Origin: Planctomycetaceae bacterium | GTDB taxonomy: Bacteria > Planctomycetota > Planctomycetia > Pirellulales > PALSA-1355 | DNA: 35,724 bases | Assembly (NCBI GenBank): GCA_003153375.1 | Contig: PLYM01000056.1 | Coordinates: 92,855 to 128,578 of the forward strand | Reading direction: 5' to 3' | Shown: positions 7,274 to 27,710 of the stretch, in pieces | Layout of the letters: every line of letters begins with the position of its first letter | Numbering within the stretch: the stretch's first letter is position 1 | The notes under the pieces: generated by a model | What the model saw: the letters and a program-made list of their open reading frames with translations, nothing else | What the model was told of the DNA's origin: nothing | Database searches by the model: none | Program-made: the position numbers and the translations under genes

Positions 7274-7303
7274 TTGATTGGGGTCATGGGACGCGAGTAG
7301 ACT
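7274..7303 (+). promoter_or_regulatory. Candidate promoter before the ABC export genes
   Basis: TTGATT (7274-7279) and TAGACT (7298-7303) are separated by 18 bases in the 214-base gap between the first glycosyltransferase and the permease gene. The rest of the gap shows no open frame that looks like a gene. GGAG (7421-7424) lies seven bases before the permease ATG. The promoter would give a 5' leader of about 120 bases. Confidence 0.33.
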
Positions 7304-7431
7304 CCGGCCCACGGTTGAATTGCCGCTGCCAGCCAGCAATTCGCTGCACTATCGCCCGACGGTCGAACGGTGGCACGGATGTTGCCGGGACGTGTCGCGG
7401 TGTCGCCGTGCTGTTGGTATGGAGACCACAC

Positions 7432-8214: not shown

Positions 8215-8273
8215 GAAGCTGGTCGCGCGATTCGTCGGATGTCTGGAAAATTGGGGATGGAGAACCAGCGGGC

Positions 8274-9032
8274 ATGGCCCTGATCGATCTCGACAAAGTC
8301 GGGCTAACCTTTCGGGTGCGTACCTACGGGCGCATCACGTTCAAAGAGTATCTCGTCAAAGGCATGTTTCGCCGCCGGGCCACGCAAACCATGGAAGTGC
8401 GCGCGCTCGATGACATTACCCTGCGATTGGGCGAAGGCGATCGCATTGGCATCATCGGCGCCAACGGCGCCGGCAAGAGCACGTTGCTGCGGGTGCTGGC
8501 GGGCGTTTATCAGCCCACGGCCGGGCGGCGGACTGTGGTGGGCAAGATCGCCTCACTGTTCGAAATCACGCTGGGCTTCGAGATGGAAGCCAACGGTTGG
8601 GAAAACATCGGTTTTCGCGGCTATTTTCAGGGCGAGACGCCGCGCACGCTGCGCGACAAGGTGGCCCAGATCGCCGAGTTCAGCGAATTGGGCGATTTTC
8701 TGAACATGCCGCTGCGCTACTACTCGGCTGGCATGCTGGTGCGGCTGGCGTTCTCGATCGCCACGACGATTCAGCCGGAGATCCTGATCGTCGATGAGGT
8801 GCTGAGCGCCGGCGACCTGGCGTTTCAGTGCAAGGCGCGGGCGCGAATCGAACAGTTGTTCGACCACGCCCGACTGGTGGTGATGGTGAGCCACGATTTG
8901 CAGTCGATCGCGAGTTTGTGCAATCGAGTGATCTTGCTCGATCATGGGCGCATCCGTCAGATTGGGCCGGCGGCGCAAGTGATCGCGACTTACGAACAAC
9001 AGGCACACGCCCCGGAGCTGAAGGCGGCGTGA
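8274..9032 (+). CDS. ABC transporter ATPase for polysaccharide export (Wzt/KpsT type)
   Basis: The 252-residue ATPase has Walker A GANGAGKST (62-70), an ABC signature YSAGM (150-154), Walker B ILIVDE (170-175) followed by VLSAGD, and the switch histidine in MVSHD (H207). The N-terminal LDKVGLTFRVRTYG and the segment before Walker A (EVRALDDITLRL) are typical of the polysaccharide/teichoic acid export group. It lacks the C-terminal carbohydrate-binding domain of the longer Wzt proteins, so chain-end recognition of the O9a type is not expected. The start at ATG 8274 gives the expected N-terminus; longer in-frame starts overlap the permease gene. It pairs with the permease immediately upstream. 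Confidence 0.9.
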   Translation: MALIDLDKVGLTFRVRTYGRITFKEYLVKGMFRRRATQTMEVRALDDITLRLGEGDRIGIIGANGAGKSTLLRVLAGVYQPTAGRRTVVGKIASLFEITLGFEMEANGWENIGFRGYFQGETPRTLRDKVAQIAEFSELGDFLNMPLRYYSAGMLVRLAFSIATTIQPEILIVDEVLSAGDLAFQCKARARIEQLFDHARLVVMVSHDLQSIASLCNRVILLDHGRIRQIGPAAQVIATYEQQAHAPELKAA

Positions 9033-9075
9033 TGATTTCAGGGCGGCGCGCGGCGCACGGTTTGGGGGGCTTGAG

Positions 9076-10614
9076 TTGGTATCACACGAAGCGACATCCA
9101 CGAAGAAAAAATTGCGCGTCCTGGTCGATCTGTCGTTCGCCGCGTTCGGCTATTGCGGCATCGCGCAGGACGTCCGGCTGATGTACAAGGCGCTCGCGTC
9201 CTCGCCGGACGTGGACGTAACCGGATTGATCTGCCTGCCCCAACGGTTGCGGCCCCTGCACAAGTTTCTGCCGACCACGGCGCATCCCGGCGACCGGCTG
9301 ACCAACCAGGCCTGCTTTCTGTGGGAACTGGATGGCCCGCACGATCCGCTTTCGCCCCTGGGACCGCTGCGAAAGCTCGGCCAATTGAGGCAGTTGGCCT
9401 CGACGCTCTTACGCTCTCGCGTGCAGTGCGATCCGCTCGAGGTCGACACGTTCTGGGACGTCGTCTGGCGTCAGCTTTTCAGTCAGACGCTGTCGGCCGA
9501 GGATCTTCCGCTCATCAAGGACAGCAAGTTCCTGCTCTGCGACATGACGCGCGGCATGATCCAGTCACGGGTGCTGTTGCACCGTCGGCCGCTGAAGCTC
9601 GATACGCGCGGCTACGATTTCGTGATCGTCAGCGGCTCGCGGCCCCTGCGACTGAGCGCGGGCACGCGGCAGATCGTCAGGCATTACGATTTGATTCCGG
9701 TGCTGCGGCCCGACGCGATGCGCAATCCCTGGTACATCCGCTGGTATCACAAGGCGATTCGCCAGAGCGCCCGCGGGGCCTATTTCGTCTGCGACTCGGA
9801 GCCCTGTCGCGAGGATCTGGCCGGTGCCTATCCGGAGTTGGCCGACAAGTGCGCGACGATTCCCTGCATGCTCACCGACGTCTATCGGCCCGAGCCCAGC
9901 CTGAACCAGATTCGCTCGATTATCGAACAGCGCCGTTCGTCGGCCACGGGCGCCGTGCCTGCGAAACGGCCGGAGCAAACGCCGCGCTACATCATGTGCG
10001 TCTCGACGCTCGAGCCGCGCAAGAACTACGTCGGCTTGATCCAGGCTTTCAACCTGCTACGTGGCCGCGCGATCGCCGGCAGCGGGCTCGATGATCTGAA
10101 GCTGTTGATCGTGGGCAGCCCCGGTTGGAAGTACGAGCCGATTTTGGCAGCGATGCGGCCGTTGGTCGAACGGGGTGATCTGTTGCACCTGGAACGCGTG
10201 CCCGCCGAGGAGCTGCGCGTGCTCTACACGCACGCCTCGGCCTTCGTGTTTCCCTCGAATTACGAGGGCTTTGGCCTGCCGCCGCTCGAAGCCATGCAAT
10301 GCGGGGCGCCGGTGATCGCCTCGGACATCGAGACGCACCGCTGGGTGTTGGGTGATGCGGCCATGTATTTCAATCCCTACGACATGACGGCGCTGGCAGC
10401 CCAGATCGAGCGCTTGGTGGCTTCGCGCGAGAGTGCCAGCCTGCGTGAGAAGCTGATCGCCAAGGGGCGCGAGCGCGTGAAGCTCTACCACGCCAATCAG
10501 TGCGGCCCGCAATGGGTTGAGCTGCTAGAGCGACTGCGCGAGGAGCGCGAACCGTCGACGGCTCCCTCGACGCTGGGGATCAACCGCCCCGCGGCGCTTG
10601 GCAAAGTTGCTTGA
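9076..10614 (+). CDS. GT4-family glycosyltransferase
   Basis: The 512-residue protein is a GT-B enzyme with a long N-terminal domain (LRVLVDLSFAAFGYCGIAQD near the start, VRHYDLIPVLRPDAM and YFVCDSEPCREDL in the middle) and a C-terminal GT4 domain starting near YIMCVSTLEPRKNYVGLIQAF. The EX7E motif is EGFGLPPLE (E397 and E405), followed by GAPVIASDI. The overall pattern resembles mannosyl- or rhamnosyltransferases of O-antigen loci. The start is taken as TTG 9076, seven bases after a G-run (9063-9069); no ATG or GTG fits before residue 36, so the exact start is uncertain. It lies 43 bases after the ATPase gene and probably adds sugars to the exported glycan. Confidence 0.87.
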   Translation: MVSHEATSTKKKLRVLVDLSFAAFGYCGIAQDVRLMYKALASSPDVDVTGLICLPQRLRPLHKFLPTTAHPGDRLTNQACFLWELDGPHDPLSPLGPLRKLGQLRQLASTLLRSRVQCDPLEVDTFWDVVWRQLFSQTLSAEDLPLIKDSKFLLCDMTRGMIQSRVLLHRRPLKLDTRGYDFVIVSGSRPLRLSAGTRQIVRHYDLIPVLRPDAMRNPWYIRWYHKAIRQSARGAYFVCDSEPCREDLAGAYPELADKCATIPCMLTDVYRPEPSLNQIRSIIEQRRSSATGAVPAKRPEQTPRYIMCVSTLEPRKNYVGLIQAFNLLRGRAIAGSGLDDLKLLIVGSPGWKYEPILAAMRPLVERGDLLHLERVPAEELRVLYTHASAFVFPSNYEGFGLPPLEAMQCGAPVIASDIETHRWVLGDAAMYFNPYDMTALAAQIERLVASRESASLREKLIAKGRERVKLYHANQCGPQWVELLERLREEREPSTAPSTLGINRPAALGKVA

Positions 10615-11966
<1,352 letters not shown>

Positions 11967-12080
11967 TCGCCAGCCGGCCGCGCAGGCGGCCAGCGGCGGA
12001 AAAAGGGATCGGGGCGACCCGTCGCGCCGCGGCAACAGCCGCGCGATCGCGATCGATTTTGTCATGGGGGGAGACAATTC

Positions 12081-12920
12081 ATGCCGACCGTCAGCTATGC
12101 ACAGAATGGCGAAGACATCGTGCTGCGCCGCGTCTTTCCGCCGGGACACCGGGGATTCTACATCGACGTCGGCGCCAACAATCCGCTCGAGGACACCGTC
12201 ACGCGGTACTTCTATGAGCAGGGTTGGGATGGCATCAACATCGAACCCGGCGACATCTTCAGCCAGGTCGCCGCGCATCGCCCGCGCGACGTGAACCTGA
12301 ACGTCGGCGTGTCGAACGTCACCGGCGTGCAGAAGTTCTACGACTTTCCCGACTATCCCGGCTCGTCGACCTATTGCGAGCACCAGGCGACGATCCATCG
12401 CCGCGACCACGGCTTTCGCTGCATCGAGCGCTCGGTGCCGATCGCCACGCTCAAGGCCATCTGCGACTTGCACGTCCGCCGGCCGATTGATTTCATCTCG
12501 ATCGACGTCGAAGGGCTGGAGCGCCAGGTGCTCGAAGGCGCCGACTGGGAGCGCTATCGCCCGGTGGTCGTCGTCATCGAAGCCACGCGGCCGAACACCG
12601 GCATTCCCTCGCACCGCGACTGGGAAGACATTCTCTGGCAAGCGCAGTATCGCTTCGCCTTGTTCGACGGGCTCAATCGCTATTACGTGCGCGCCGAGGA
12701 CGCTCATCTGTTGAGCGCCTTGTCGGCGCCGGCGAGTTGCATTGACGATTACGTGCCCTATCGGCACCTGAGAATGGTGCAGGAGTTGCAAAGCCGGCTG
12801 GCGTTGATCGAGGGCGTCGGACCGCGCTCCCTGGCCATCGCCCGGCAGATCAATCTGGTGGCCAAGCGCGTGCGCAAGGTCACCTGGCGTTTGAAGCACC
12901 TGGTTCGCAGAGCCGCCTGA
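12081..12920 (+). CDS. FkbM-family SAM-dependent methyltransferase
   Basis: The 279-residue protein starts SYAQNGEDIVLRR, a common N-terminus of FkbM-family methyltransferases in polysaccharide loci. The SAM-binding motif is FYIDVGANNP (27-36), and the family motif ISIDVEGLERQVLEGADW carries D142 and E144. These enzymes usually O-methylate sugar or related hydroxyl groups. The C-terminal about 60 residues are basic (KRVRKVTWRLKHLVRRAA), which could favour membrane association. The start is ATG 12081 with a G-rich ribosome binding site (12066-12072). It lies 114 bases behind gmd and most likely decorates the exported glycan or its precursor. Confidence 0.85.
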   Translation: MPTVSYAQNGEDIVLRRVFPPGHRGFYIDVGANNPLEDTVTRYFYEQGWDGINIEPGDIFSQVAAHRPRDVNLNVGVSNVTGVQKFYDFPDYPGSSTYCEHQATIHRRDHGFRCIERSVPIATLKAICDLHVRRPIDFISIDVEGLERQVLEGADWERYRPVVVVIEATRPNTGIPSHRDWEDILWQAQYRFALFDGLNRYYVRAEDAHLLSALSAPASCIDDYVPYRHLRMVQELQSRLALIEGVGPRSLAIARQINLVAKRVRKVTWRLKHLVRRAA

Positions 12921-12984
12921 CCGCGCGAGGCGCACCGAACGATCATGTAGCACCGCCACGACAGCCGCTTCGGAACTCAACATC

Positions 12985-14430
12985 ATGACTCCCGCCAGCC
13001 CGCCCACGAATCGCCACACCGAACGATTGACCAGCCCCAACTCACGGGCCGAACACGGCCGCCCGCGGCGCATCCTGATCGAGTGTACGCCCACATTTCG
13101 TCACGACTGCGGCACCGGCGTGCAGCGCGTGGTGCGGAACATCGTCAACCATGCGTCGCTGGTGGGTCGCGAGTTGGGAATCGAGTGCCACGGGGTCGCC
13201 CACGATCCGACGTACGGCTTTCAGATCGTGGGAGCCATGCCACCCAAGCCGCACGCGACTCCGGTATCCGAGGCGCCTGCCGCCAACGTTCTACCGACAT
13301 CGCCGCGAACATTGCCGCTGCTCAAGGGCGCTCTGCGGCGCAGCCTGGCGGTCACGGGTTTGCTCGTGCCGGCGCGCCAAGCAAAGCGCGTTGTGGATCG
13401 CACGCTGGCTTCGGCCCGCAAGGCCGTCGATCGCAAGCGCCGCGAGGCGGCGAGCGTTCAGCCGGGGCCCGGCGACGTGCTGCTGCTGACCGACACGATC
13501 TGGAACACGCCCGACGTTTGGGATGGCGTCAATCGGGCTTGTGCCCGGGGCGCCACGTTGGGGGCGATCATTTACGATCTGATTCCGCTGCACTTCGCCG
13601 AGCTTTACGGCCCGTCGATGGAAGCGATTTTTGGACAATGGTTTCGCAATGTGGCCACGAAGGCCGAGTTCGCGGTCTGCATTTCGCGCTCAACCTGGGA
13701 AGACGTCGAGAGCTATCTGACGGCCCGCGGCGGGCTGGGACGGCGCGGCCCGGCGCTGGCCGGCTCCTGGTTTCGTTTGGGCGAAGGCCTGGAAGCGCGC
13801 GGCGATCAGGGCCCGGTGCGGCCGCAGCTGCGCGAACTGTTCACGCCCGGCAACCCGCGCGGTGACAATCCCTATTTGATCGTCGGTTCGTTCGATCCGC
13901 GCAAGGATCTGGTCACGGTCGTCAAAGCCTTCGAGCAACTCTGGTCTGCTCGCGGCAAGGCACGACTGGTCGTAATCGGTCGCGGCTCGCCCGGTCAGAA
14001 CACGCCGCTGGAGCGGATGGTGCTCGACCACCCGCAGTTTGGCCGCGGACTGTTTTGCTTTCCGGACGTCGAAGACGCGGAACTGGATTTCTGCTACCGC
14101 AATTCGGCCGCGCTGGTTACGGCCTCGTATGCCGAGGGCTTCAATCTGCCGATCGTTGAATCGCTGGGCCGTGGTCGTGGAGTGCTGGCGTCGGACATTC
14201 CGGTACACCGCGAAGTGGCCGGCGCGAACGCGGCCTATTTCACGCCGCGGGCGCCCGAATCACTGGCCTCGCTGATCGAGCGTCACCAGGCCGGCGAGCT
14301 GGGCGACCTGGCCGCGCGGTTGGAAAACTTTCGCTGGCCCGACTGGCGCGAGAGCAGCCGCGAGTTGTTGGAAAATATTCTGAAGCTGTATTCCGCATCC
14401 CCCGTTTCGTCGCACACCCAGGCCGCTTGA
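12985..14430 (+). CDS. GT4-family glycosyltransferase
   Basis: The 481-residue GT-B protein has an N-terminal RILIECTPTFRHDCGTGVQR segment, typical of acceptor-binding domains of GT4 enzymes, an Ala/Pro/Arg-rich insert at about 90-150, an IYDLIPLHFAELYG segment, and a donor domain starting near YLIVGSFDPRKDLVTVVKAF. The EX7E motif is EGFNLPIVE (E384, E392), followed by GVLASDIPVHREVAG. The start is ATG 12985, with no strong ribosome binding site. It is the third clear GT4 enzyme of the locus and stands 64 bases behind the FkbM gene. Donor and linkage cannot be read from sequence. Confidence 0.86.
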   Translation: MTPASPPTNRHTERLTSPNSRAEHGRPRRILIECTPTFRHDCGTGVQRVVRNIVNHASLVGRELGIECHGVAHDPTYGFQIVGAMPPKPHATPVSEAPAANVLPTSPRTLPLLKGALRRSLAVTGLLVPARQAKRVVDRTLASARKAVDRKRREAASVQPGPGDVLLLTDTIWNTPDVWDGVNRACARGATLGAIIYDLIPLHFAELYGPSMEAIFGQWFRNVATKAEFAVCISRSTWEDVESYLTARGGLGRRGPALAGSWFRLGEGLEARGDQGPVRPQLRELFTPGNPRGDNPYLIVGSFDPRKDLVTVVKAFEQLWSARGKARLVVIGRGSPGQNTPLERMVLDHPQFGRGLFCFPDVEDAELDFCYRNSAALVTASYAEGFNLPIVESLGRGRGVLASDIPVHREVAGANAAYFTPRAPESLASLIERHQAGELGDLAARLENFRWPDWRESSRELLENILKLYSASPVSSHTQAA

Positions 14431-14506
14431 TTGCCACCCCACAGTTGGCCGTCGCAACCCCGCACGGCCGAGACCCTGACTTCCTAGCCCTCACGGATTC
14501 ACGACC

Positions 14507-15793
14507 ATGCATCTAACCTATCGACAAACCTGCCGCGTCTGCGGATCGCCGGCACTGACGAAGGTCATCGACCTGGGCCCGCAACACCTGCAAGGCTCTT
14601 TCATCGGAGCCGACGGCAAGCTCCCCCCGCTGCGCAAGATCGAGACGGCGCTGGTGCGCTGCGACCCGCTGCGCGACGAACGGGCCTGTGGCCTGTTGCA
14701 GATGACGGTTTCGGTGCCGCCCACCATCTTGTATGCCGACTATTGGTATCGCTCGGGCACGAACCGCACGATGACCGATCACCTGGGCGGCATCGCCAAC
14801 GAGTTGGTCGAGATGATCAACAAGCCCACGGCCCGCGTGCTCGACATTGGCTGCAACGACGGCACACTGCTGCGGCACTATCCGTCGAGCTATGTGCGCT
14901 ACGGCATCGATCCGTCGGACGCGGCCACCTCGGTGGCCGACGACGTGCAGGTGGTCAACGATTTGTTTCCCTCCGAGCAGCTGACCAGCCTGACGCGGGG
15001 CAAGACGTTCGACGTCATCACGTCGATCGCGATGTTCTACGACCTGGAAGACCCCACGGCATTCGCGCGGGCCGTCAAGCAGCATCTGACGCCCGACGGA
15101 GTGTGGTGCTTTGAAATGTCCTACATGCCGGCCATGCTGCGGTGCAACTCGTACGACACGATCTGCCACGAGCATCTCGAGTACTACAGCCTGGCGGTGC
15201 TGGAATACATTTTGCGGCAGGCTTCGATGAAGGTCGTGCGCGTGTCGCTCAACGATTGCAACGGCGCTAGCATTCGCGTACACGCCACGCACTCGGACAA
15301 TTTCCTGTTTGACGGCGACGCCCAGGCCCTGGCTTCGTTGCGCGAGTTGCGGCAGGAAGAGTTCGATCTGCAGCTCGACACCGACGAGCCGTATCGCAAT
15401 TTCCAGGACGCGATCGAGCGGCACAAGACCGAGCTGTCGTCGCTGCTGCGGCGGCTGAAGAGCGCCGGCAAGAAGGTTCACATCTATGGTGCCTCGACCA
15501 AAGGCAACACGATTCTGCAAACCTGCGGCATCAATGGCAGCCTGGTCGAATGCGCGGCCGAGCGCAATCCGAAGAAATTCGGCGGACGCACGCTGGGCAC
15601 CAACATTCCGATCGTCAGCGAGGAGGAATCGCGCGGCCGCAAGCCCGACTACTACCTGGTGCTGCCCTGGCACTTCAAAGCCGAATTCATGGAGCGCGAA
15701 CGGGCGATGCTCGAGGCGGGCGTGGGCTTTATCTTTCCGCTGCCGCAGATCGAAATCATCAGCCGCTCGCACGACGCAAAATACGCTGCCTGA
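14507..15793 (+). CDS. Sugar C-methyltransferase (TylCIII/TcaB9/NovU type)
   Basis: The 428-residue protein has the three-part layout of NDP-4-ketosugar C-3-methyltransferases. The N-terminal zinc-binding domain has C9, C12 (CRVCGS), C52 and C61. The central SAM domain has VLDIGCNDGTLL (111-122). The active-site region ICHEHLEYYSL (219-229) corresponds to the catalytic YHEHLSYYS motif of TcaB9. The C-terminal domain has VHIYGASTKGNTILQ, the conserved C-terminal Methyltransf_14 signature. Known members methylate C3 of a 4-keto-6-deoxy sugar nucleotide. With Gmd three genes upstream, the likely substrate is GDP-4-keto-6-deoxymannose, giving a branched deoxysugar; that step is inference. Confidence 0.87.
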   Translation: MHLTYRQTCRVCGSPALTKVIDLGPQHLQGSFIGADGKLPPLRKIETALVRCDPLRDERACGLLQMTVSVPPTILYADYWYRSGTNRTMTDHLGGIANELVEMINKPTARVLDIGCNDGTLLRHYPSSYVRYGIDPSDAATSVADDVQVVNDLFPSEQLTSLTRGKTFDVITSIAMFYDLEDPTAFARAVKQHLTPDGVWCFEMSYMPAMLRCNSYDTICHEHLEYYSLAVLEYILRQASMKVVRVSLNDCNGASIRVHATHSDNFLFDGDAQALASLRELRQEEFDLQLDTDEPYRNFQDAIERHKTELSSLLRRLKSAGKKVHIYGASTKGNTILQTCGINGSLVECAAERNPKKFGGRTLGTNIPIVSEEESRGRKPDYYLVLPWHFKAEFMERERAMLEAGVGFIFPLPQIEIISRSHDAKYAA

Positions 15794-15851
15794 GCCGCTC
15801 GAACCGGCCGCGGCCGAAACCTGAAGATCCAGTCCCTGTTGATTGAGTGCC

Positions 15852-17975
15852 ATGACCAACGACAAACGAAATCGCGTGTTCTGGCTCGGCATGCACGTGG
15901 TGCTGACCAAGACCGAATTGCCGCGGCTACGGGCGCTGGGCTATGAAGTCTTCAATCCGCCCTATCTGGCCGACGTCTACGATCAGTCGGCCGTGATTCA
16001 GTGGGACCGCAATCAGCAGTCGACGCTGCCGCCGGAAGTGTTCGCCGAGCTGTCGCAGTACAACTTTTTCTATAATCGCATCACGCCGCGAATCGCCGAT
16101 TTGCTCAACGAGTATTTCGGCACCGTCATCGTGACGATCTCTCCCTCGTGGCTCGAGTCGGTGCTCGAGGTTTACAAAGGCCGAATCATTTATCGCGTCT
16201 ATGGGCAGCCGGGCACGTTGTCGGAGACCCTGTGGGTGATGAAGATGTTTCGCTCGGTGCAAGAGCGAGACAACTTCTTCTTCGTGCCGCATGCCGAGGA
16301 AGCCATCGTGGACGAGCACGCCTGGCTGAAGACGCGGATGTCGGTCGTGCCCTACACGATTCCGCTCGACGTGTTCGAGCACGAGAACACATGGTCGCCC
16401 GATGAGCCGCACGCGGCCGAGATCATGGCTTGCTGCCCGAATATCGACAATCCGCAGTTCGCCGCCCACTACAAGTATTTGAACGAGGAGTTTCCCGAGA
16501 AGCACTTCAAATTATATGGCGTGCAGCCTCGCAAGTACGACGATCCGCGCGTGGTGGGCACCTTGCCTCGCGACGAGCAGTTGAGCCGCTATCGTCGGGC
16601 GGCCGGCTATTGGTATCACTACGATTTCGCCAACAGTTGCTACCTGCCGCCGATCGAGATGATGACCGTCGGCGGTCCGGTGATCTACATGCGGGGCTCG
16701 CTGCTGGCCAAAAGCTTTGACGAGCGCGGGCCTGGCGAAGCCGGCAACGAGGACGAAGCCCGGCGAAAGATTCGCCTGCTGCTCAACGGCGACCGTGCGT
16801 TCATCGAGGAAGTGCGCGCTTCGCAGGCGCCAATCGTGCGCCGCTACCACCCCGACTTCGTCCACCCGATCTTCGACCGCACGTTCAAATACCTGCTCGA
16901 TCGAACCGACGCGCCGCGGCATGCGCCGGCCATCTTGCCCTCCGGCGCGCCGTTGGCCGCGCCGAAACGCGCCGTCGCGTTCTTTCATGCACCAGGCGAA
17001 CACGTCGCGTTCGACCACGGCAAGTATGAAGCTTTGACCTCGATCGCGCGCACGGTGGGCACGGCGGTTGGGGCACTGCTGGAAAAGACCGATCACGAAG
17101 TGGTGGTGACCTGTTTCGCGCACCAACTGGAAAACGCCTACGGCTACTTGAACGCCCAGCGCTATCCGGGCCGGCTGCACTTTCAAGTGCTCAATCCCGA
17201 GCCGCTGGCCCCGCGGCCCGTCAAACCGGGGTGCGGCGTGGTGCCGCTAACGACGCAAATGCCCGGCGAATCGAAGCTCTCCGCGCCGCTCGGTGCGTCA
17301 ACGCAGTCCGCCAGCCATCCGACGACCAATCCCCAGGCTCAGTCGCTTCGCGACCGCGCCCTTCGGCAGGTGGGTCACGCCGCGATCACGGCGCTGGGCA
17401 AGAGTCGCGTGTTGCTGATCGTGACCCTGGTGCTGGCTGGCGCCGCGTTGCAAGCGATCAAATTGGCGCGCATGGCGCGCCGCGTGGCGGGCGGGGTCTA
17501 TCGTCGCGCCCGCGCCTTGGGGGGACACTGCCGTCGCATGCTCGGCATCGGAAATCCCTGGCTGCTCCGGCGCGATTGCGTCGAGTCCTTGAATGCGCAG
17601 CCTGGCGACGTCGTGGTGATCGTACCCGACGCCTCGCGCTTTCCCGAGTCGCTGTTACTGAAGCGGCCGGTCGTGCTGTGCCTGCCCGATGGGCCGGCGA
17701 CGTCCGGCGGCGGCCTGCGCGCGAAGGTGCATGCCCAGATCAGCCAATTTCTCTCGGAACGGGCCAGCGAGATCGTGCATGTCTCCCAATTCCAGCAGTC
17801 TCGCCTGTTCGCCGCCCAGCCCTCAATCGCCGGCCCGCATCGACGTTGGCCGGCCGGCACGTGCGACGACGCCAATACGGCCGCGGGGGGCAAAAGATTA
17901 GAAACCGCCTCGGCTTGCGTCAAGCTGGATGACAGCGCCAGCGGACACGCCTCGATCGCCGACAAAGTGGCCTAG
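15852..17975 (+). CDS. Large two-module glycosyltransferase-like protein, second module apparently incomplete
   Basis: The 707-residue protein begins at ATG 15852 (an in-frame TTG lies three codons upstream). Residues 1-340 look like a complete GT-B-like unit, with RVFWLGMHVVLT, a VVPYTIPLDVFE hinge and an RYRRAAGYWYHYDFANSCYLPPIEMM segment placed like a donor-binding region. Residues about 370-450 start a second Rossmann-like unit (VAFFHAPGEHVAFDHGKYEAL), followed by a hydrophobic helix at about 517-537 and GDVVVIVPDASRFPE (from 585) and EIVHVSQFQQSRLF (640-653), the usual end of a GT4 acceptor domain. The expected donor domain with an EX7E motif never follows: the last 54 residues look unrelated. 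It may be a decayed fusion protein. Function is assigned only by locus and fold resemblance. Confidence 0.7.
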   Translation: MTNDKRNRVFWLGMHVVLTKTELPRLRALGYEVFNPPYLADVYDQSAVIQWDRNQQSTLPPEVFAELSQYNFFYNRITPRIADLLNEYFGTVIVTISPSWLESVLEVYKGRIIYRVYGQPGTLSETLWVMKMFRSVQERDNFFFVPHAEEAIVDEHAWLKTRMSVVPYTIPLDVFEHENTWSPDEPHAAEIMACCPNIDNPQFAAHYKYLNEEFPEKHFKLYGVQPRKYDDPRVVGTLPRDEQLSRYRRAAGYWYHYDFANSCYLPPIEMMTVGGPVIYMRGSLLAKSFDERGPGEAGNEDEARRKIRLLLNGDRAFIEEVRASQAPIVRRYHPDFVHPIFDRTFKYLLDRTDAPRHAPAILPSGAPLAAPKRAVAFFHAPGEHVAFDHGKYEALTSIARTVGTAVGALLEKTDHEVVVTCFAHQLENAYGYLNAQRYPGRLHFQVLNPEPLAPRPVKPGCGVVPLTTQMPGESKLSAPLGASTQSASHPTTNPQAQSLRDRALRQVGHAAITALGKSRVLLIVTLVLAGAALQAIKLARMARRVAGGVYRRARALGGHCRRMLGIGNPWLLRRDCVESLNAQPGDVVVIVPDASRFPESLLLKRPVVLCLPDGPATSGGGLRAKVHAQISQFLSERASEIVHVSQFQQSRLFAAQPSIAGPHRRWPAGTCDDANTAAGGKRLETASACVKLDDSASGHASIADKVA

Positions 17976-18042
17976 GTGGCTTAGAGTCACCTTGATAGAC
18001 TCCCGGCCCTCGGGCGTGCCCCCCAGTCTCACACCCGCAAAC

Positions 18043-18744
18043 ATGATAGATCCAGCGATGAATATCGAGCTTCTGACCGCTTCTCCGCTGCGAACTCACC
18101 GCCGCTCGCATCCGCTCGAACCGGCGTCGACGGTGGATCTGCCCCATACCCGGCCAAGCCGCTCGGCGCTACTGATCAGCCGCATGATCGACGTCGTGGG
18201 CGCGAGCCTGATGCTCTGCGTGCTCGCCGTGCCGATGCTGATCGTGGGCCTGGTGATCAAGCTCACCAGCCGCGGTCCGGCCTTGTATCGCCAGGTGCGC
18301 ACGGGCTTGGGCGGAAAGTCGTTCGTGATGTACAAGTTTCGCTCGATGCGAGTCAATGCCGAGGCCGAAACGGGGCCGGTCTGGTCCTCGGCTGGCGATC
18401 CGCGCTGCACGCGCATCGGCAACGTGCTGCGCCGCCTGAGCATTGATGAGCTGCCGCAATTGGTCAACGTGCTGCGCGGCGAGATGAGCCTGGTTGGGCC
18501 GCGACCCGAGCGCCCCTATTTCGTGCAATCGTTCTCCAGGCGGTTTCCGGCCTACGCCCGGCGCCACCAGGTGATGCCCGGCATTACGGGTTGGGCGCAA
18601 GTGAACGGCTGGCGCGGCGACACGTCGATCGAAAAGCGGCTGGAGTTCGACTTGTTCTACGTTCGCAACTGGTCGGTGTTGTTCAATGTCTGGATCTTGC
18701 TGTTGACGCCGTTTGCGGTCCTCGTTGAGCAAAACGAGCGCTGA
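18043..18744 (+). CDS. Polyprenyl-phosphate sugar-1-phosphate transferase (WcaJ/PglC type)
   Basis: The 233-residue protein is a monotopic phosphoglycosyl transferase, which starts glycan synthesis by moving a sugar-1-phosphate from a nucleotide sugar to undecaprenyl phosphate. Features are one N-terminal membrane segment (RMIDVVGASLMLCVLAVPML onwards), MYKFRSMR (K98 region), the catalytic Asp-Glu pair in DELPQLVNVLRGEMSLVGPR (D135, E136), and PGITGWAQVNGWRG (about 178-191). It lacks the four extra N-terminal helices of full-length WbaP, which suits the small PglC-like subgroup. Starts at 17929 (overlapping the previous gene), 18043 or 18058 are possible; none has a clear ribosome binding site. 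The GT-C gene follows three bases after the stop. Confidence 0.9.
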   Translation: MIDPAMNIELLTASPLRTHRRSHPLEPASTVDLPHTRPSRSALLISRMIDVVGASLMLCVLAVPMLIVGLVIKLTSRGPALYRQVRTGLGGKSFVMYKFRSMRVNAEAETGPVWSSAGDPRCTRIGNVLRRLSIDELPQLVNVLRGEMSLVGPRPERPYFVQSFSRRFPAYARRHQVMPGITGWAQVNGWRGDTSIEKRLEFDLFYVRNWSVLFNVWILLLTPFAVLVEQNER

Positions 18745-18747
18745 AAC

Positions 18748-20412
18748 ATGGACGCCCACCAGTTCGCTTCGTACCGGGGAATGGTCCTCGCCGTGGCCGT
18801 GGCTGCCGCATTGCAGCTGGCGGTCGTCGCGCGCAGTCCCTCGGTCACCGCCGACGCGATCATCTTTTCGGCGGTCTCGAAGGACCTGGCGGTTTCGCCG
18901 ATCGAGACCCTGCGCAAGTACGATCAGCATCCCGGCTTTCCGGCCATGCTCCTGGCCGGCGCTCGCACGGTGCAGGCCTTGGGCGACCATCGCGACCCCG
19001 AGTCGTGGATGCTCGGCGGGCAGCTGGTGTCGTTCATCTGCGGTCTGGCGAGCGTTTGCGTGGTGTGGTTCTTTGCCCGCGATTTGTTTGGCCTGGCGGC
19101 GGCGAACCTGGCCGCGTTCATTTTTGCCGTGTTGCCGGTGCCACGCTCGAGCGCCGCGGACGCCCTGAGCGATACGCCGCACTTGCTGTTCTATTTGCTG
19201 GCAGCCTGGCTGGCTTCCACGGGAATCAGTAAAGGCCGCATCTTGCCGCTCATCGGAGCCGGCCTGGCCAGTGGTATTGCCTATTGGATTCGGCCCGAGG
19301 GCCTGGAAGTGGCCCTCGTTGCCTTGGCCTGGCTCATCTGGACAGGGTTTCGCGAAGATTGGGGAGTGCGCCGCCTGGGCCTGGCAACGGCCGCACTGGC
19401 CGGCACGGCCTTGATCGTGGCCGGACCGTACTATGTGCTGGCCGGCAAAGTCACCAGCAAACAGCTACCGTTCGCCAAGGCGCGCGCGGCCAGTCTGATC
19501 GCGGAACTCAAACAACCCAAACCCTCCGATTCGCCTGCTCCCCAATCAACCGCGACCGCCGCGTCGGCCCCAGCGCCGGCCGTCGTGCCCGCGCCCGCTG
19601 CCGCGCCAGCACCGGTTGTCGCGCCAGCGCCCGCCGAACCGTCAATTCACGCTGGCGCGACGCGTTCCTGGCGACCGCTGGCCAAGGCGATCATGTCGTT
19701 CGTCAACAGCGGCATTCAGGGCTTCAAGTGGGTCTTCATTCCGTTCTACCTGCTGGGCCACATCGAATTATTTCGCCGCCGGCCCGACTGGCTGCGGCTG
19801 GAATTCATCTGGACCCTGGGCGTCGTCCACATTGGCATCCTACTGACGGTCCACTTGCTCTCGGGCTACATCGCGCATCGCCATTTGCTGCCGCTGATCG
19901 CCCTGGCCATGCCCTGCACGGCGTTGGGCGTAATGTATGTCGGCGAGTTGCTCGCGAACCGCTTGGGCGGCCGCAGGACGTTGGCGACGCTGGCCACGGC
20001 GGGCCTGGCCGCGGCGATCGTGGTGCCCTATACCGTGCGGCCCTTCAGCCGCGAGTTCGAACCGGTGATCGAAGCCACGCGTTGGGTGCAAACCCACGCG
20101 GCGCCCGGCACCGGCATCGTCAGCAATTCTCCCTATGTTGGTTTCTATGGTACGCTGCCCGTGGCCGTGTTGGGTCACAGCACGACCAGCGTCGACGAAG
20201 CACTCTCCGTGGCCGACGGTCGGGCCCACTACGACTACGTCGTGCTGCACGTCGGGGCCCACGACTATCGGCCAGAATGGCTGGCCCAGGTCGAAACCAA
20301 GTATCGCCCCATTCAGGTCTTCCCTGAATTCATGGACGGCAAACGCGCGATGCGCGTCATGCTCTTCGAAGCGAAAGATGGCCCAGCTCGACTGGCTCGC
20401 AGCCCGCAATAG
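18748..20412 (+). CDS. GT-C type membrane glycosyltransferase (GT39/ArnT-like)
   Basis: The 554-residue polytopic protein has about ten or more hydrophobic helices, with a first helix at 11-30 followed by an acidic residue in the first loop (SPSVTADAIIF, D36), the layout of lipid-phospho-sugar-dependent GT-C enzymes. A further loop holds SSAADALSDTPHLLFYLLAA. Residues about 271-298 are an Ala/Pro-rich low-complexity linker (repeated APAP/APV units) between two membrane blocks. The C-terminal about 170 residues form a soluble domain (FEPVIEATRWVQTHAAPG), presumably periplasmic. The start lies three bases behind the phosphosugar transferase stop, so the two are one operon. It may add a side-branch sugar on the outer face of the inner membrane. 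The substrate is unknown. Confidence 0.78.
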   Translation: MDAHQFASYRGMVLAVAVAAALQLAVVARSPSVTADAIIFSAVSKDLAVSPIETLRKYDQHPGFPAMLLAGARTVQALGDHRDPESWMLGGQLVSFICGLASVCVVWFFARDLFGLAAANLAAFIFAVLPVPRSSAADALSDTPHLLFYLLAAWLASTGISKGRILPLIGAGLASGIAYWIRPEGLEVALVALAWLIWTGFREDWGVRRLGLATAALAGTALIVAGPYYVLAGKVTSKQLPFAKARAASLIAELKQPKPSDSPAPQSTATAASAPAPAVVPAPAAAPAPVVAPAPAEPSIHAGATRSWRPLAKAIMSFVNSGIQGFKWVFIPFYLLGHIELFRRRPDWLRLEFIWTLGVVHIGILLTVHLLSGYIAHRHLLPLIALAMPCTALGVMYVGELLANRLGGRRTLATLATAGLAAAIVVPYTVRPFSREFEPVIEATRWVQTHAAPGTGIVSNSPYVGFYGTLPVAVLGHSTTSVDEALSVADGRAHYDYVVLHVGAHDYRPEWLAQVETKYRPIQVFPEFMDGKRAMRVMLFEAKDGPARLARSPQ

Positions 20413-21634: not shown

Positions 21635-21701
21635 GTCCGGTGTTTCCGCTCGCGTTCAGCTCCTGCCAGCTCCCGCCTTCGAACCGTTGACGCTCACGAT
21701 C

Positions 21702-24700
21702 ATGACACGCCGACTTGCCAGTGTCCTGACCTTGCCAACTGGCAGCACGCTAGCTCTGATCGTGCTAGCCCTTCTTGGATCGGCATCGTGGGCCGCAGCC
21801 GATTCGGCGATGCCCGAGGCCATCGACTTTAACCGCGACGTGCGGCAGATCCTGTCGAACCATTGCTTCGCTTGCCACGGCCCCGATCAGGCCAAACGAC
21901 AGGCCGGACTGCGGCTCGACAAGCAGGAGCACGCGTTGGCCGTGCTCGAATCGGGTCAGCGGGCCATCGTGCCGGGCGACAGCAAGGCCAGCACCCTGAT
22001 CGCGAGGATCACGAACCCGGACGACGAGGCGGCGATGCCCCCTGCGGGCAGCGGCCGGAGGCTAACTCCGCGCGAGGTCGACGTCTTGCGGCGGTGGATC
22101 GACCACGGCGCACCGTGGAAGGGGCACTGGTCCTACCTGAAGATCGAGCGGCCCGCCGTGCCGGCGGTGAGCGATGTCGCCTGGCCCAAAACACCCATCG
22201 ACCATTTCATTCTTCAGCGCCTCCAGGCCGAAGGGCTGAAGCCCGCGCCCGAGGCCGACAAAGCCACGCTGATTCGTCGTCTGAGCTTCGACCTCACCGG
22301 GCTGCCGCCCACGACGGCGGACGTCGACGCGTTCGTGGCCGACAACGACACGGGCGCGTATGAAAAGCTGGTCGACCGACTGCTGGCATCTCCGCGCTAC
22401 GGCGAGCGGATGGCTCAGAAGTGGCTCGATCTGGCCCGCTATGCCGACACCAATGGCTATCACATCGACAACCATCGCGACATGTGGCGATATCGCGAGT
22501 GGGTGATCGAGGCCTTCAATCGCAATCTGCCTTTTGATCGCTTCGCGACCGAGCAATTGGCCGGCGATTTGTTGCCGGGCGCGACGCTCGAACAGAAAAT
22601 CGCCAGCGGGTTCCATCGCAATGTGATGGTCAACTTCGAAGGCGGAGCCGACCCGCAGGAGTATTTGACCAAGTACATTGTCGACCGCGTGACCACGACC
22701 GCCACGGTCTTCCTGGGTTCGACGCTGGCGTGTACCGAGTGCCACGATCACAAGTACGACCCCTTCACGCAGCGTGAGTTCTATCAGCTCTACGCTTATT
22801 TCAACAGCGTGCCCGAGCAGGGACTCGACGGGCAGAAGGAAAACCCACGCCCCAGCATTCGCGTGGCCTCGCCCGAGCAAACGGCCGAGGCGGCAAAATT
22901 TGCCGGTCAACTGGCGGCGTTAGAATCGCGTGCGCAGGCTGCTCTGGCGCAGGAGACCGCCGCAGTGCCATCGGCCGCGCCTCCCTTGACTGCCGAGGCT
23001 CGCGAGTATGTGTGGGTCGATGACGAGCTGCCCCCGGGCGCTGCCCCCGACGGAAAAGATTCCTGGCAGTGGGTCGAATCGCCCGCGCCGGTGTTGCAAG
23101 GTCGTCGAGCCAGCGAGCGCACGGCGACGGGTACGAGCCAGCACATCTTTACCGCCGCGAAATATCCGCTGATCGTCGGCCCCGGCGACAAGCTCGTGGC
23201 CCACGTCTACCTCGACCCGGCCAATCCGCCCGAACAAATCATGGTGCAACTCAACGACGGCGGCGGCTGGGAGCATCGGGCCTGGTGGGGCACGACCAAG
23301 ATTCAGTGGGGTGTCGAGAATTCTCCATCGAGCCTGCCGATGGGACCGCTGCCCGCGGCCGGCCGCTGGGTGCGGTTGGAAATCGACGCCGCTGCGGTCA
23401 ACCTGCCGCCTGGCGCCGCGATCAGTGGTTGGGCCTGCACGCAATTTGGCGGGCACGTTTTTTGGGACAAGTTGGCCATCGTGACCCGTCGTCCCCAAGG
23501 CCCCTCGATCTTCGATAATCAAGAGACTTGGGAGTTGGCCGAGCGTTTGCGGCCCAACTCGCCGGCTCCCCCCGCGGTGCGCGAGCCGATCAAGCTTGCG
23601 CCGGCCGATCGCAATGCCGAGCAGCAGCGTTCGGTGCGCGATTATTTCGTGCGCTACTTCTATACCGGCACGCGGGCGACCTTCGACCCGATCGAGAATG
23701 AGATCGCCCAGGTCAAAAAATCGCAGGACGAGTTGGAAAAGGCGCTGTCGCAAACGATGGTCATGGAGGAGATGCCCCAGCCGCGCGAGACGTTCATGCT
23801 GGTGCGGGGCGATTTTCGTTCCAAGGGCGATAAGGTCACGCCCGGCGTGCCGGCCAGCCTGTCGGCATTGCCCGCTGGCGCCCCGCCGAACCGTTTGGGC
23901 CTGGCCCGCTGGCTGGTCGATCCGAATCAGCCGCTGGTCAGCCGCGTGACGGTGAATCGTTATTGGCAACAATACTTCGGCACTGGCATCGTCAAAACGA
24001 GCGAGGACTTTGGCACGCAAGGCGAATGGCCCAGCCATCCCGACCTGCTCGATTGGCTGGCTGCCGAGTTCATCGACAGCGGCTGGAACGTCAAAGCGTT
24101 GCAAAAGCTAATTGTGATGTCGGCCGCCTATCGGCAAAGCGCGCACGTCGATCCGCAAGCGCTCAAGCACGATCCCTACAACCGGCTGCTGGCCCGGGGG
24201 CCGCGCTTCCGACTCGATGCCGAGATGATTCGCGATAATGCGCTGGCGGTCAGTGGGCTGCTCGACGGCCGCATCGGCGGGCCCAGCGTTTCGCCCTATC
24301 AGCCGCCCGGGCTGTGGGAGGAGATCGGCTTTGGCAACAGCTTCACTTCGCAAAGCTATGTGCAGAGCCATGGGGCCGATCTCTATCGCCGCGGCATCTA
24401 CACCTATTGGAAGCGGGCCCTGCCGTATCCGCCGATGGTCACCTTCGACGCGCCGAACCGCGAGGTTTGCACCGACTGCCGGGCACGCACGAACACGCCG
24501 TTGCAGGCGCTGGTGCTGCTGAACGACCCGGCCTATGTCGAGGCGGCTCGCGTGCTGGCCGAGCGGATCATGAAGGAAGGCGGCGCTGGCGTGAACGAGC
24601 GGATTTCCTTCGCGTTCAAACTCTGCACGGCCCGAGCGCCCAAGCCGGCGGAGTTGGAGGTGCTGACGCGGGTTTTTCAGGCGCAGTTGGCCAAATTCCG

Positions 24701-24842
24701 GCAACGCGCCGACGCGGCGACTAAGCTGATTGGGGCCGGCGAAGCCCCGCGCCCCACGGACCTGGACACCGCCGAATGGGCCGCCTGGACGGCCGTGGGC
24801 AATGTGCTGTTGAATCTCGACGAAACGATTACCAAGGGTTAG
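21702..24842 (+). CDS. Exported PSD1/DUF1549/DUF1553 protein with CxxCH motifs
   Basis: The 1046-residue protein starts with a signal peptide (hydrophobic at 16-30, likely cleaved near 33). A planctomycete cytochrome-C-like domain follows, with heme-type motif CFACH (55-59). DUF1549 spans about 164-372 ([49 protein letters not shown]) and ends with a second Cxx[13 protein letters not shown] (from 344). Residues about 436-600 form an inserted beta-rich domain ([16 protein letters not shown] to [15 protein letters not shown]) that resembles a carbohydrate-binding jelly roll. DUF1553 covers about 728-1030 ([34 protein letters not shown]). Function is unknown; heme binding is predicted only from motifs. 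The start is ATG 21702, preferred over TTG 21687. The DUF1501 partner begins three bases after the stop. Confidence 0.9.
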
Positions 24843-24845
24843 GCC

Positions 24846-26294
24846 ATGAACTTCGAACAGCAACTGAATCGCGCCATCACGCGCCGCACGCTGTTGGGAC
24901 AATCGGCGCGCGGATTCGGCAGCGTCGCGCTAGCCTCGCTGCTGGGCGGCGGACTGCACGGCGCGACGATTGGCCAGGGCCTGGGCACGCACGGCGCACT
25001 GCCCGCGCTGCACTTTGCCCCCAAGGCCAAGCGCATCATCTATCTGTTCATGTCGGGCGCGCCGTCGCACATCGACCTGTTCGATAACAAGCCCAAGCTC
25101 AAGGAGCTGACCGGCGAAGAGTTGCCCAAGAGCGTGCGCGGCGATCAGCGGATCACGGGCATGACCAGCGGTCAGTCCAAGTTGTTGCTCGTTGGGCCCG
25201 CCTACGACTTCAAGCGCTACGGCCAGTGCGGCGCCGAGATCACGGAGATGATGCCGCACATCGGCAGCATTGCCGACGACATCGCCATCGTCCGCTCGAT
25301 GCACACCGATCCGATCAATCACGACCCGGCCGTCACGTTCCTGCTCACCGGCAATCAGCAGCCCGGCCGGCCGACGCTGGGGGCGTGGATGGCCTATGGC
25401 CTGGGCAGCGTCAACAAGAATCTGCCCGAGTATGTCGTGCTGCTATCGGGTGGCGGCGGCCAGCCGCTGTTGGCCCGTTATTGGGGCAATGGGTTTCTGC
25501 CGAGCAAGTATCAGGGCGTGCAGTTCCGCTCGACCGGCGATCCGGTGCTCTATGTCTCGAATCCCGAGGGCATCGATCCGGCCACCCGCCGCGAACTGCT
25601 CGACGGCGTGCAGCAGCTCAATCGCTTGCAACTCGAGGCGGTGGGCGACCCGGAGATTTCGACGCGCATCGACGCCTATGAAATGGCCTTCCGCATGCAG
25701 ACCAGTGTGCCGGAGCTGATGGACATCTCGCAAGAGCCGCAGTCGGTGCTCGACATGTACGGCGCGCAGCCGGGCAAGGCCTCGTTTGCCAACAACTGCC
25801 TGCTGGCCCGGCGGCTGGCCGAGCGCGACGTGCGGTTCGTGCAGCTTTATCACCGCGATTGGGACCATCACGGCAACCTGCCCAACGAGCTCAAGCGGCA
25901 GTGCGGCATCTGCGATCAGGGCTCGGCCGCGCTGGTCAAGGACCTTAAGCAGCGCGGGCTGCTCGACGAGACGCTGGTCATTTGGGGCGGCGAATTCGGC
26001 CGCACCGCCTATAGCCAAGGCGCGATCAGCAAGGACAGCTTTGGCCGCGATCACCATCCGCGCTGCTACAGCATCTGGATGGCCGGCGGCGGCATCAAGC
26101 CGGGCATCACCTTGGGCAAGACCGACGACTTTGGCTACAACCTGGCCGAAGACGGCGTTCACGCGCACGACTTTCAGGCCACGGTGCTGCACCTGATGGG
26201 TGTCGACCACAAGCAACTCACCTTCCGCTTCCAGGGCCGCGACTTCCGCCTGACTGACGTCAGCGGCAAGGTGGTCGAAAAGTTGCTGGCATAA
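24846..26294 (+). CDS. DUF1501 family exported protein (partner of DUF1549/1553)
   Basis: The 482-residue protein has a twin-arginine-type N-terminus (TRRTLLGQSA, 12-21) before a hydrophobic stretch. It then shows the DUF1501 pattern: IIYLFMSGAPSHIDLFDNKP, IADDIAIVRSMHTDPINHDP, RFVQLYHRDWDHHGNLP, the GGEFGRTAYSQG motif near 381, and GRDHHPRCYSIWMAGGGIKPG. The conserved Asp/His residues lie where the alkaline phosphatase superfamily binds metal, but no activity is established. It starts three bases after the DUF1549/1553 stop (TAGGCCATG), so both are made together; this gene order recurs at 30694-35051. It belongs to the longer DUF1501 subtype with the FLLTGNQQPGRPTLGAW region. Confidence 0.92.
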   Translation: MNFEQQLNRAITRRTLLGQSARGFGSVALASLLGGGLHGATIGQGLGTHGALPALHFAPKAKRIIYLFMSGAPSHIDLFDNKPKLKELTGEELPKSVRGDQRITGMTSGQSKLLLVGPAYDFKRYGQCGAEITEMMPHIGSIADDIAIVRSMHTDPINHDPAVTFLLTGNQQPGRPTLGAWMAYGLGSVNKNLPEYVVLLSGGGGQPLLARYWGNGFLPSKYQGVQFRSTGDPVLYVSNPEGIDPATRRELLDGVQQLNRLQLEAVGDPEISTRIDAYEMAFRMQTSVPELMDISQEPQSVLDMYGAQPGKASFANNCLLARRLAERDVRFVQLYHRDWDHHGNLPNELKRQCGICDQGSAALVKDLKQRGLLDETLVIWGGEFGRTAYSQGAISKDSFGRDHHPRCYSIWMAGGGIKPGITLGKTDDFGYNLAEDGVHAHDFQATVLHLMGVDHKQLTFRFQGRDFRLTDVSGKVVEKLLA

Positions 26295-26315: not shown

Positions 26316-27710
26316 ATGCTGCGCGGCTGCCTGCTGACGCTGTTGCTGCTGGCGGCCTTGATCGGCGGCTACTACTACTGGTTCGACCAGGTGTTCGAGC
26401 CGCCGGGCAGTTGGATCGGCGCCGGCGTGGTCGGATTTTTGGTGATGTGCGGTCTGGGGGCACTCACCAATGCCGCCAGGGCGTGGGGCGATTGGTCGCG
26501 CGTGTCGACGGCGCGGCGCGACGTGCAGCTCATCGACGGCCGCGTGTCGGCCGTGGCCGGAGAGATCCGCCCGATCGGCGAGCCGCTGCTGGCGCCGTTC
26601 AGCGGCACGCCCTGCGTACTGTGCGAATATGACCTGACCAGCCACGACCGTGTCGTCAAGTCGGCCGCCAACGACAATCCCAACAGCGGCTCGGACTATG
26701 CCGGATTCCTGATGGTTCCCTCGGCCATCCACACCCCGCTGGGCGACGTGCGCCTGCTGGGCTTCCCGCTGATTGAAGACTTTGCCGAGAATCGCTGCAC
26801 CAGCCCCGAGGCCGTGCGCAACGCGCGCGAATTTCTCAGCACTCATGAGTTCGAAGATCGCACCGGCATGAAGTTCGTCAAGGCGCTGGCCGTGTTCGGT
26901 CAGATCTGGTCCGACGATGACGGGCTAGTGCAGAAGAACATGCAGTTCAGCAAGATCGGGGTCGACGAGTTGTTTCCGCCCGATCATCTTCAGGCGCCGC
27001 CGGACGATCTGGCGCAATCCGACGGCGACGAAGCGTCCGACGAGGAGCCGACGCCGCCCACTTCGATTCCCAAGCTGGTCGAAAAACTGGTGCCGGTGGG
27101 CGAGCAGGTGTGCGCGATCGGCATCTATGACGAAATGCGCCGCGGGCTCGTGCCGCCGCCGGGCAGCACCAAGCCCAACCGGCTGCTGCGCGGCACGGCC
27201 GATCAGATCGAAGCCCAACTGCGACGCAAAGTCGTCGCGCAACTGCTGGCCGGCCTGATCGGCCTGGCGATCATTCACGCCGCGATTTTCGCCGTGATCG
27301 CTCTCTATCAGCATTCGCCCGAAATCGTGCGCGATCAGCAACAGCGAGCCACGCAGGCCGTCAGCCAAGGCGACACAACCGCGCTCGAGCCGCTCGTACA
27401 CCGCGGACTGAACATCAATTTCCGCGATGCCCAGGGCCGCTCGCTACTAGAGTTCGCGCCGGACGCCAAGACCGCCGGCTGGCTTCTCGAACACGGCGCC
27501 GACTTTCAGGCAACCGACAGCGTCGGCGAAACGGCGCTGACCCAGGCCGCCCGATTCGGCCGCACCGAGATCGTGCGCCAGTTGATAACCGCCGGCGCCA
27601 GTCTGAATCCCCGCGGCGTCACGACCAATCTCACGCCGCTCGGCGAGGCCCTTGCACGCGGTCACGACGAGATGGCAACGGCGCTACGCGAGGCAGGCGC
27701 CCAGGAGTAA
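26316..27710 (+). CDS. Membrane protein with GIDE/BAM-like domain and C-terminal ankyrin repeats
   Basis: The 464-residue protein has two N-terminal hydrophobic helices (about 4-22 and 32-54), a soluble region at 65-300, a third helix at about 306-334, and a C-terminal domain with about three ankyrin-like repeats (TTALEPLVHRGLNINFRDAQG, GETALTQAARFGRTEIVRQL, TPLGEALARGHDEMATALRE). Residues 70-110 (QLIDGRVSAVAGEIRPIGEP, then LLAPFSGTPCVLCEYDLTSH) resemble the GIDE/BAM domain next to the membrane in the mitochondrial E3 ligase MULAN and prokaryotic relatives. No RING domain is present. A Glu/Asp/Pro-rich linker lies at about 228-250. The start is 21 bases after the DUF1501 stop, so it may belong to that operon. 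Function is unknown; a scaffold at the membrane is a guess. Confidence 0.75.
   Translation: MLRGCLLTLLLLAALIGGYYYWFDQVFEPPGSWIGAGVVGFLVMCGLGALTNAARAWGDWSRVSTARRDVQLIDGRVSAVAGEIRPIGEPLLAPFSGTPCVLCEYDLTSHDRVVKSAANDNPNSGSDYAGFLMVPSAIHTPLGDVRLLGFPLIEDFAENRCTSPEAVRNAREFLSTHEFEDRTGMKFVKALAVFGQIWSDDDGLVQKNMQFSKIGVDELFPPDHLQAPPDDLAQSDGDEASDEEPTPPTSIPKLVEKLVPVGEQVCAIGIYDEMRRGLVPPPGSTKPNRLLRGTADQIEAQLRRKVVAQLLAGLIGLAIIHAAIFAVIALYQHSPEIVRDQQQRATQAVSQGDTTALEPLVHRGLNINFRDAQGRSLLEFAPDAKTAGWLLEHGADFQATDSVGETALTQAARFGRTEIVRQLITAGASLNPRGVTTNLTPLGEALARGHDEMATALREAGAQE

Follow-up and report, generated by a model that had tools for sequence, protein, structure and literature searches.

The gene at 26316-27710 of the window (by which we mean the whole stretch of Planctomycetaceae bacterium DNA that was analysed, 35,724 nucleotides long) encodes what we read as a planctomycete membrane protein with a divergent GIDE/BAM domain between its helices and an ankyrin tail; the likeliest role for such a protein is that of a transmembrane adaptor or sensor whose ankyrin arm would lie outside the membrane, and we put the probability of this reading at about one half. 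Sequence comparison establishes the homology to GIDE proteins, the ankyrin repeats, and the differences among relatives in the C-terminal part. The fold of the domain, the orientation of the protein in the membrane and its function are more conditional, and are taken up in that order below.

The open reading frame is a real gene. It has 464 open codons beginning with an ATG, the start M-x-x-GC is common to the protein and its close relatives in alignment, and its GC content at the three codon positions (0.69, 0.46 and 0.82) is similar to that of its neighbours. As an earlier note on this DNA had claimed, the protein has three predicted membrane helices, on which hydropathy (windows starting at residues 1, 33 and 310) and the structure model (helices in Table 1) agree. 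Near the start of the first helix is a conserved GC at residues 4-5, in which C5 is invariant in all 22 family members and G4 is present in at least 90% of them. Direct reading finds no hydrophobic stretch ahead of C5, and N-terminal lipidation at this residue was rejected. The C-terminal ankyrin repeats noticed earlier were found again by Pfam, with an Ank_2 match at residues 386-462 (E 1.3e-17, 64.6 bits against a cut-off of 27.3), and by structural comparison, in which residues ~335-464 of a model made from seven sequences align with solved ankyrin proteins at Z 16-17. Ankyrin models are the only ones that the protein matches above Pfam cut-offs. The reported absence of a RING finger also agrees with the Pfam scan, which found none, the C-terminus being ankyrin; the protein should therefore not be a RING-type ubiquitin ligase, and RING E3 ligase activity was rejected as a candidate function.

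Table 1. Features of the 26316-27710 gene and of the two genes upstream of it (window positions; residues are those of the encoded protein)
Feature	Position	Strand	Basis
DUF1549/DUF1553 protein	21687-24842	+	Pfam
DUF1501 protein	24846-26294	+	Pfam
Whole gene, 464 aa: TM1-TM2-GIDE-like domain-TM3-ankyrin repeats	26316..27710	+	open frame, start common with relatives, GC3 0.82
Predicted transmembrane helix 1 (TM1; residues 2-24)	26316..26387	+	hydropathy and model
Predicted transmembrane helix 2 (TM2; helix 31-67, extending past the membrane)	26406..26516	+	hydropathy and model
GIDE/BAM-like domain (residues 68-294)	26517..27197	+	profile comparison, reciprocal HMMs, model
First GIDE motif block (residues 76-108; GxV..G.i.p..epLlAPfSG.pCVlcEYdl)	26541..26639	+	direct reading; family HMM match in Pfam-GIDE protein, E 6.5e-5
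Second GIDE motif block (residues 253-272; L.Ek.v..GeqVc.iG.Yd)	27072..27131	+	profile alignments
Predicted transmembrane helix 3 (TM3; helix 295-333)	27198..27314	+	hydropathy and model
Ankyrin repeats, about four (residues 335-464)	27318..27707	+	Pfam, model, structural comparison

On sequence grounds the middle domain, which is flanked by the second and third helices, is a divergent GIDE/BAM domain. The GIDE/BAM pattern that the earlier note had placed at residues 70-110 is present at residues 77-108 (...AVAGEIRPIGEPLLAPFSGTPCVLCEYDL), and in the second motif block E256 and G269 are invariant in 22 of 22 members. The Pfam GIDE model, PF12483, has matches in 26 of the 294 planctomycete genomes searched; it has none in the window protein, in its genome, or in any of the seven family members scanned with E up to 10. 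An alignment (A4) of thirteen of the 26 PF12483-matching proteins, with the stretch ahead of the Pfam match included, was compared by hhalign with an alignment of 18 family members (A3; the earlier A1 holds seven). The two align with a probability of 96.3% and E 1.6e-9 over 205 columns, and the blocks G.v..G....pL.aPfS..pCV..eYd and E.....Ge.V..iG both occur in order. The similarity to GIDE that was to be sought by profile search is thus found with the Pfam-GIDE proteins, but not with PF12483 itself. The first comparison, made with the seven-member profile, had aligned 71 columns, all in the half that holds the second block, at 41.7% and E 2.7e-4, and the strength rose once relatives were added. 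In controls, the best E among 200 column shuffles was 0.04 and the reversed profile gave 0.053. When blocks of 10 columns are shuffled, so that parts of the first motif can survive, E falls as low as 2.2e-6, and the real soluble part gives 2.6e-7; because the real soluble-part alignment covers just 35 columns and the block shuffles score close to it, much of the profile signal is attributable to the first motif.

Reciprocal HMM searches were run on a mixed set (E up to 10, database size 10,000) that included 48 reversed sequences and 132 window frames as decoys, and neither HMM listed any of these 180. The GIDE HMM (A4) listed 21 of the 22 family members, missing L076, with 15 at E <=0.0051, a best value of 2e-6, a weakest of 0.33, and 0.0027 for the window protein. 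The family HMM (A5) listed 15 of the 26 GIDE proteins, four of them at E <=0.001 (best 1.9e-7) and several above 1. In a genome search the family profile A3 also matched a Pfam-GIDE protein (L048) of G133 over the first motif, at E 6.5e-5 for one genome. In another known Pfam-GIDE protein, L041, the motif occupies residues 85-88 and the Pfam match begins later, at residue 102; that the Pfam match starts after the first motif may be part of the reason why PF12483 misses the window protein. Profile comparison, column shuffles and reciprocal HMMs together support the architecture that had been proposed from the letters of the gene, in which three helices and ankyrins accompany a GIDE/BAM-like domain and RING is lacking, and on this assignment the Pfam GIDE model misses a branch of GIDE proteins.

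A model of residues 1-338 made from 22 sequences has a pLDDT of 88.5 and a pTM of 0.82 (the first model, from seven sequences, had a pLDDT of 66.3 and a PDB comparison dominated by ankyrins). Its elements run in the order beta 77-86, beta 99-108, betas 128-147, helix 164-176, beta 253-260 and beta 264-272, with short elements between them and an acidic, low-confidence loop at ~222-250; we take this order to be that of an OB fold. Sixteen of the 50 matches listed by VIA-align are RPA, SSB, MCM or PolD, presumably all OB-fold proteins; fifteen of them align inside residues 59-300 and one across 1-293, at Z values of only 4.6-5.7 and rmsd of 2.8-10.8. The top Z of that search is 7.9, below the tool's telling level, and its list is headed by further membrane proteins, whose alignments run along the helices, and by an unrelated helical hairpin; Foldseek found nothing in the PDB at E 0.001 or below. 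With such Z values, top rows that are mostly membrane proteins and no Foldseek match in the PDB, an OB-like fold for the GIDE-like domain stays a suggestion. Profile searches of solved structures returned none with the family profile and three chance-level rows (best E 0.31) with the GIDE profile. In BFVD the N-terminal model matches best to small uncharacterised proteins of the giant viruses Klosneuvirus, Satyrvirus, Hyperionvirus, Tupanvirus and Harvfovirus (E 9.6e-5 to 8.8e-3). Three matches in the viral library, to giant-virus proteins without a named function, have E up to 0.001, and we make no claim that these belong to the GIDE proteins.

The whole protein, used as query, finds matches in 41 of 97 related genomes, mostly through the ankyrins, and the N-terminal part is covered at six places, the window included. 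Profile searches were made of Planctomycetota genomes, and the first 4 to 21 candidates per genome were scored, so the following counts are lower bounds. Profile A1 matches in 6 of 392 genomes of the phylum and 17 of 346 genomes of the order, and profile A3 in 19 of 397 genomes of the class, 3 of 101 in the family of G309 and 4 of 216 of the phylum, one of these four being the canonical GIDE protein of G133. These genome draws overlap, and the counts of 17 and 19 both include a remnant in G508 (L082:1498-1821, 107 residues), in which the first helices are joined directly to an ankyrin scrap and the GIDE domain is gone. At least 22 distinct full-length members were found, all in Planctomycetota, which is nearly the sole phylum searched with profiles; outside it the reach is that of a single-protein scan of genome contigs and of the viral, phage and plasmid collections. 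The contig scan, which reaches close relatives, found one locus, L031, with the same sequence as the member in G908, which in turn is the same as JAKFUF010000117.1 (Planctomycetaceae bacterium). No relative of the N-terminal part was found among viral contigs, plasmids or phages at the limits used.

The C-terminal part varies within the family. Ankyrins or their remnants are present in 14 of the 22 members and absent from eight, indicating that the ankyrin tail is dispensable. Ankyrin models are matched by three of the seven A1 members (by alignment the window protein, L002 and L031), at E <=0.001 by L065, L076, L077, L078, L080 and L099, and weakly (E 0.017 to 0.052) by L075, L081 and L094, while L095 and L098 were counted as ankyrin-bearing by eye. 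The members without them are L003-L006 and L079, which were scanned, and L071, L073 and L074, which were judged by alignment. On a tree of the N-terminal part, whose long branches and weak deep support make the placement of the window protein uncertain, the no-ankyrin label requires three changes. One ankyrin-free member, L006, is sister to L002, which has ankyrins, and the two have near-identical ends (ALLRNRDPAV...); excision of the ankyrins from L006 is the simplest account of this, and a tail common to proteins with and without ankyrins implies that the repeats can be lost. Eight of the 14 ankyrin members have an extra tail of ~100 residues (alignment A6) that may be NTF2-like. The A6 profile picks up a structurally solved NTF2-like protein, at E 0.0011 and over 31 positions only, in a search that also returned ankyrin rows due to a repeat left in A6, and one tail member matches the Rv0361 C-terminal model weakly, below the cut-off (E 0.016). 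Because the one match is short and stands among ankyrin rows and the other is under the cut-off, the NTF2-like reading is a lead only.

Helix-helix-ankyrin proteins that have no GIDE domain occur beside the family. In G096 and G017, the two genomes that hold L006 and L002, a frame ending in such a protein (its start inferred) stops 87 and 142 bases, respectively, before the GIDE gene begins and has the same orientation, so that the two kinds of gene adjoin. Very long, antisense-looking frames (L070:7070-11953 and L066:7331-12815) carry the helix-helix-ankyrin proteins of these genomes at their 3' end. A similar GIDE-free helix-helix-ankyrin gene is present in G092 (L009:1378-2199), a genome with no match to the family.

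The orientation of the protein is suggested by the distribution of charge. Over 22 proteins the ratio of K+R to D+E is 17/0 at the N-terminus, 16/38 in the loop between TM1 and TM2 and, for stretches of 25 residues, 74/56 just after TM2 and 96/44 just before TM3; after TM3 it is 55/62 (18 proteins). By the positive-inside rule, these counts suggest that the N-terminus and the GIDE domain are cytoplasmic and that the ankyrins face outward, a placement taken from charge bias only, in which the signals after TM2 and TM3 are weak. In canonical GIDE proteins the ratio is 11/19 ahead of the first helix and 91/27 behind it (21 of 26 proteins; two have no helix found and three were left out of the count), so the canonical domain should face inward too, and the extra TM1 of the family fits an inward-facing GIDE domain. 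In the working that we favour, the extra helix would put the N-terminus inside, the GIDE domain, like that of other bacterial GIDE proteins, would be turned to the cytoplasm, and the ankyrins, together with the possible NTF2-like domain of relatives, would be outside the membrane. An envelope protein might then bind to the extracytoplasmic ankyrin arm, and the GIDE domain, anchored in the membrane, might either relay this binding or recruit a cytoplasmic partner or ligand.

Other explanations differ in how much of this evidence they accommodate. It could be that the domain is a lineage-specific membrane domain which resembles GIDE by chance, in one short motif only, and stands beside ordinary ankyrins; this would account for the failure of PF12483 in all members scanned and for the part of the profile signal that one local motif supplies, but against it stand two motif blocks aligned in order between flanking helices, reciprocal HMM matches free of decoys and the match in G133, and we consider it very improbable. 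The opposite orientation deserves more weight. It would put the GIDE domain outside, as in human MAPL, and the ankyrins in the cytoplasm, where they would replace the RING of MAPL as the effector end. Most bacterial ankyrin proteins work in the cytoplasm or in hosts, which favours such an arrangement, as does the weakness of the charge signals that follow TM2 and TM3. PMC4457424 places the BAM domain of human MAPL in the intermembrane space. The charges at the N-terminus, in the first loop and before TM3 nevertheless all run against the opposite orientation, and the canonical bacterial GIDE proteins have the same inward flank; we regard this orientation as unlikely, though the least improbable of the alternatives.

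The surroundings of the gene bear on the remaining two. As had been observed earlier, the gene directly follows a DUF1549/DUF1501 pair (the first member is DUF1549/DUF1553 by Pfam), on the same strand and with 21 bases from the DUF1501 stop to its ATG, and a further DUF1501 gene lies downstream. Such closeness would be expected if the protein worked with the pair as an operon partner, and the relative L098 has a DUF1553-type match, on the gene's own strand, that ends ~0.5 kb before the gene. However, the window holds three DUF1501 genes, so closeness to one of them is cheap; the pair does not adjoin the gene in any of seven long-flank relatives (L031, L065-L070), three of which (L031, L066 and L070) have DUF1501 matches ~2 kb or more away, and L098 is the only one of 14 short-flank loci with a match. 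We give the partnership little credence. A stress or defence component, that is, a GIDE/ankyrin protein sensing envelope damage or phage attack, seems equally improbable. In its favour are the links of animal GIDE/MAPL to innate immunity and cell death (abstract of PMC4457424), a match of the window protein to the PADLOC candidate PDC-M72A (6.1e-16), and matches of two window glycosyltransferases to Pfam GT4-conflict that rank under ordinary family matches. Both PADLOC matches of the protein, however, fall inside the ankyrins (341-463) with none beyond them, and two ankyrin-free members scanned have none; the N-terminal part is unmatched in phage or plasmid records; and, among the 25 window ORFs scanned, those that Pfam matches have ordinary best matches (surface-glycan synthesis/export, enolase-like, EF-hand, APH-type kinase, molybdopterin oxidoreductase, glyoxalase-like and DUF1549/DUF1501). 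An AAA_21 match on a window ABC protein is below the cut-off and secondary to an ordinary best match; neither it nor the GT4-conflict matches are read as defence, and nothing points clearly to such a role. The guess in the earlier note that the protein is a scaffold or a stress/defence component thus survives as a plausible scaffold or adaptor, and its defence half gains no clear support from PADLOC matches confined to the ankyrins or from the ordinary best Pfam matches in the window.

Three other features of the window were noted. A surface-glycan cluster occupies 5997-20412 and includes three group-1 glycosyltransferases, an ABC-2 exporter pair, a GDP-mannose dehydratase, two methyltransferases, a sugar transferase and a PMT-like protein; within it, 15843-17975 is a 710-residue frame with no Pfam match at E 0.001. 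At 320-2035 is a gene for a 571-residue EF-hand-rich bacterial protein (Pfam EF-hand_1, E 7.9e-34).

The transmembrane adaptor or sensor that we favour has its closest counterparts in the bacterial GIDE proteins (PF12483), which like the window protein have a membrane helix, a block G.vevkG....pL.S.ls..CVyY, a block E..i..g..vyvlG and another helix, and which share with its family the positive flank after the pre-domain helix. The family differs from them in its extra N-terminal helix (the canonical proteins examined have no counterpart of TM1), its acidic insertion and its lack of a PF12483 match, and it has ankyrins, with possibly an NTF2-like tail in relatives, where bacterial GIDE proteins often have LemA (PF04011). 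Five of ten canonical GIDE proteins scanned have LemA and none has ankyrins at E 0.01. A C-terminal LemA is found in L041, L042, L043, L049 and L055, and GIDE-LemA is recurrent in planctomycetes. Whole-word literature searches for LemA with GIDE gave nothing relevant among the matches listed; "GIDE domain" together with "ankyrin" was not found in the literature searched, and the main text of PMC4457424 does not use the word ankyrin. The GIDE domain and the ankyrins are each already known, and it is their joining that is unusual, as the earlier note had held, being absent from the ten canonical GIDE proteins and from the literature searched. The planctomycete ankyrin membrane proteins of G017, G096 and G092 likewise have a helix followed by ankyrins, and differ in having no GIDE domain.

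Among eukaryotes the comparable protein is the BAM-RING protein MAPL (also MULAN, GIDE or MUL1), which likewise has a BAM/GIDE-type domain between helices and a C-terminal module after the last helix (PMC4457424), the likeness being drawn through the description of MAPL. The window protein differs in being bacterial and in having ankyrins in place of RING, and its GIDE domain is probably placed across the membrane opposite to that of MAPL. A broader and doubtful proposal is that GIDE/BAM is an OB-type domain of the cytoplasmic face which planctomycetes made into a trans-envelope receptor through the added helix and an extracytoplasmic ankyrin/NTF2-like arm. If this were true, the type of domain found in the mitochondrial ligase MAPL of eukaryotes would serve here to read a protein signal from outside. 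The bacterial family joins the domain to a binding arm rather than to a ligase, and its C-terminal modules vary within one order, which offers a way to probe the role of the domain itself.
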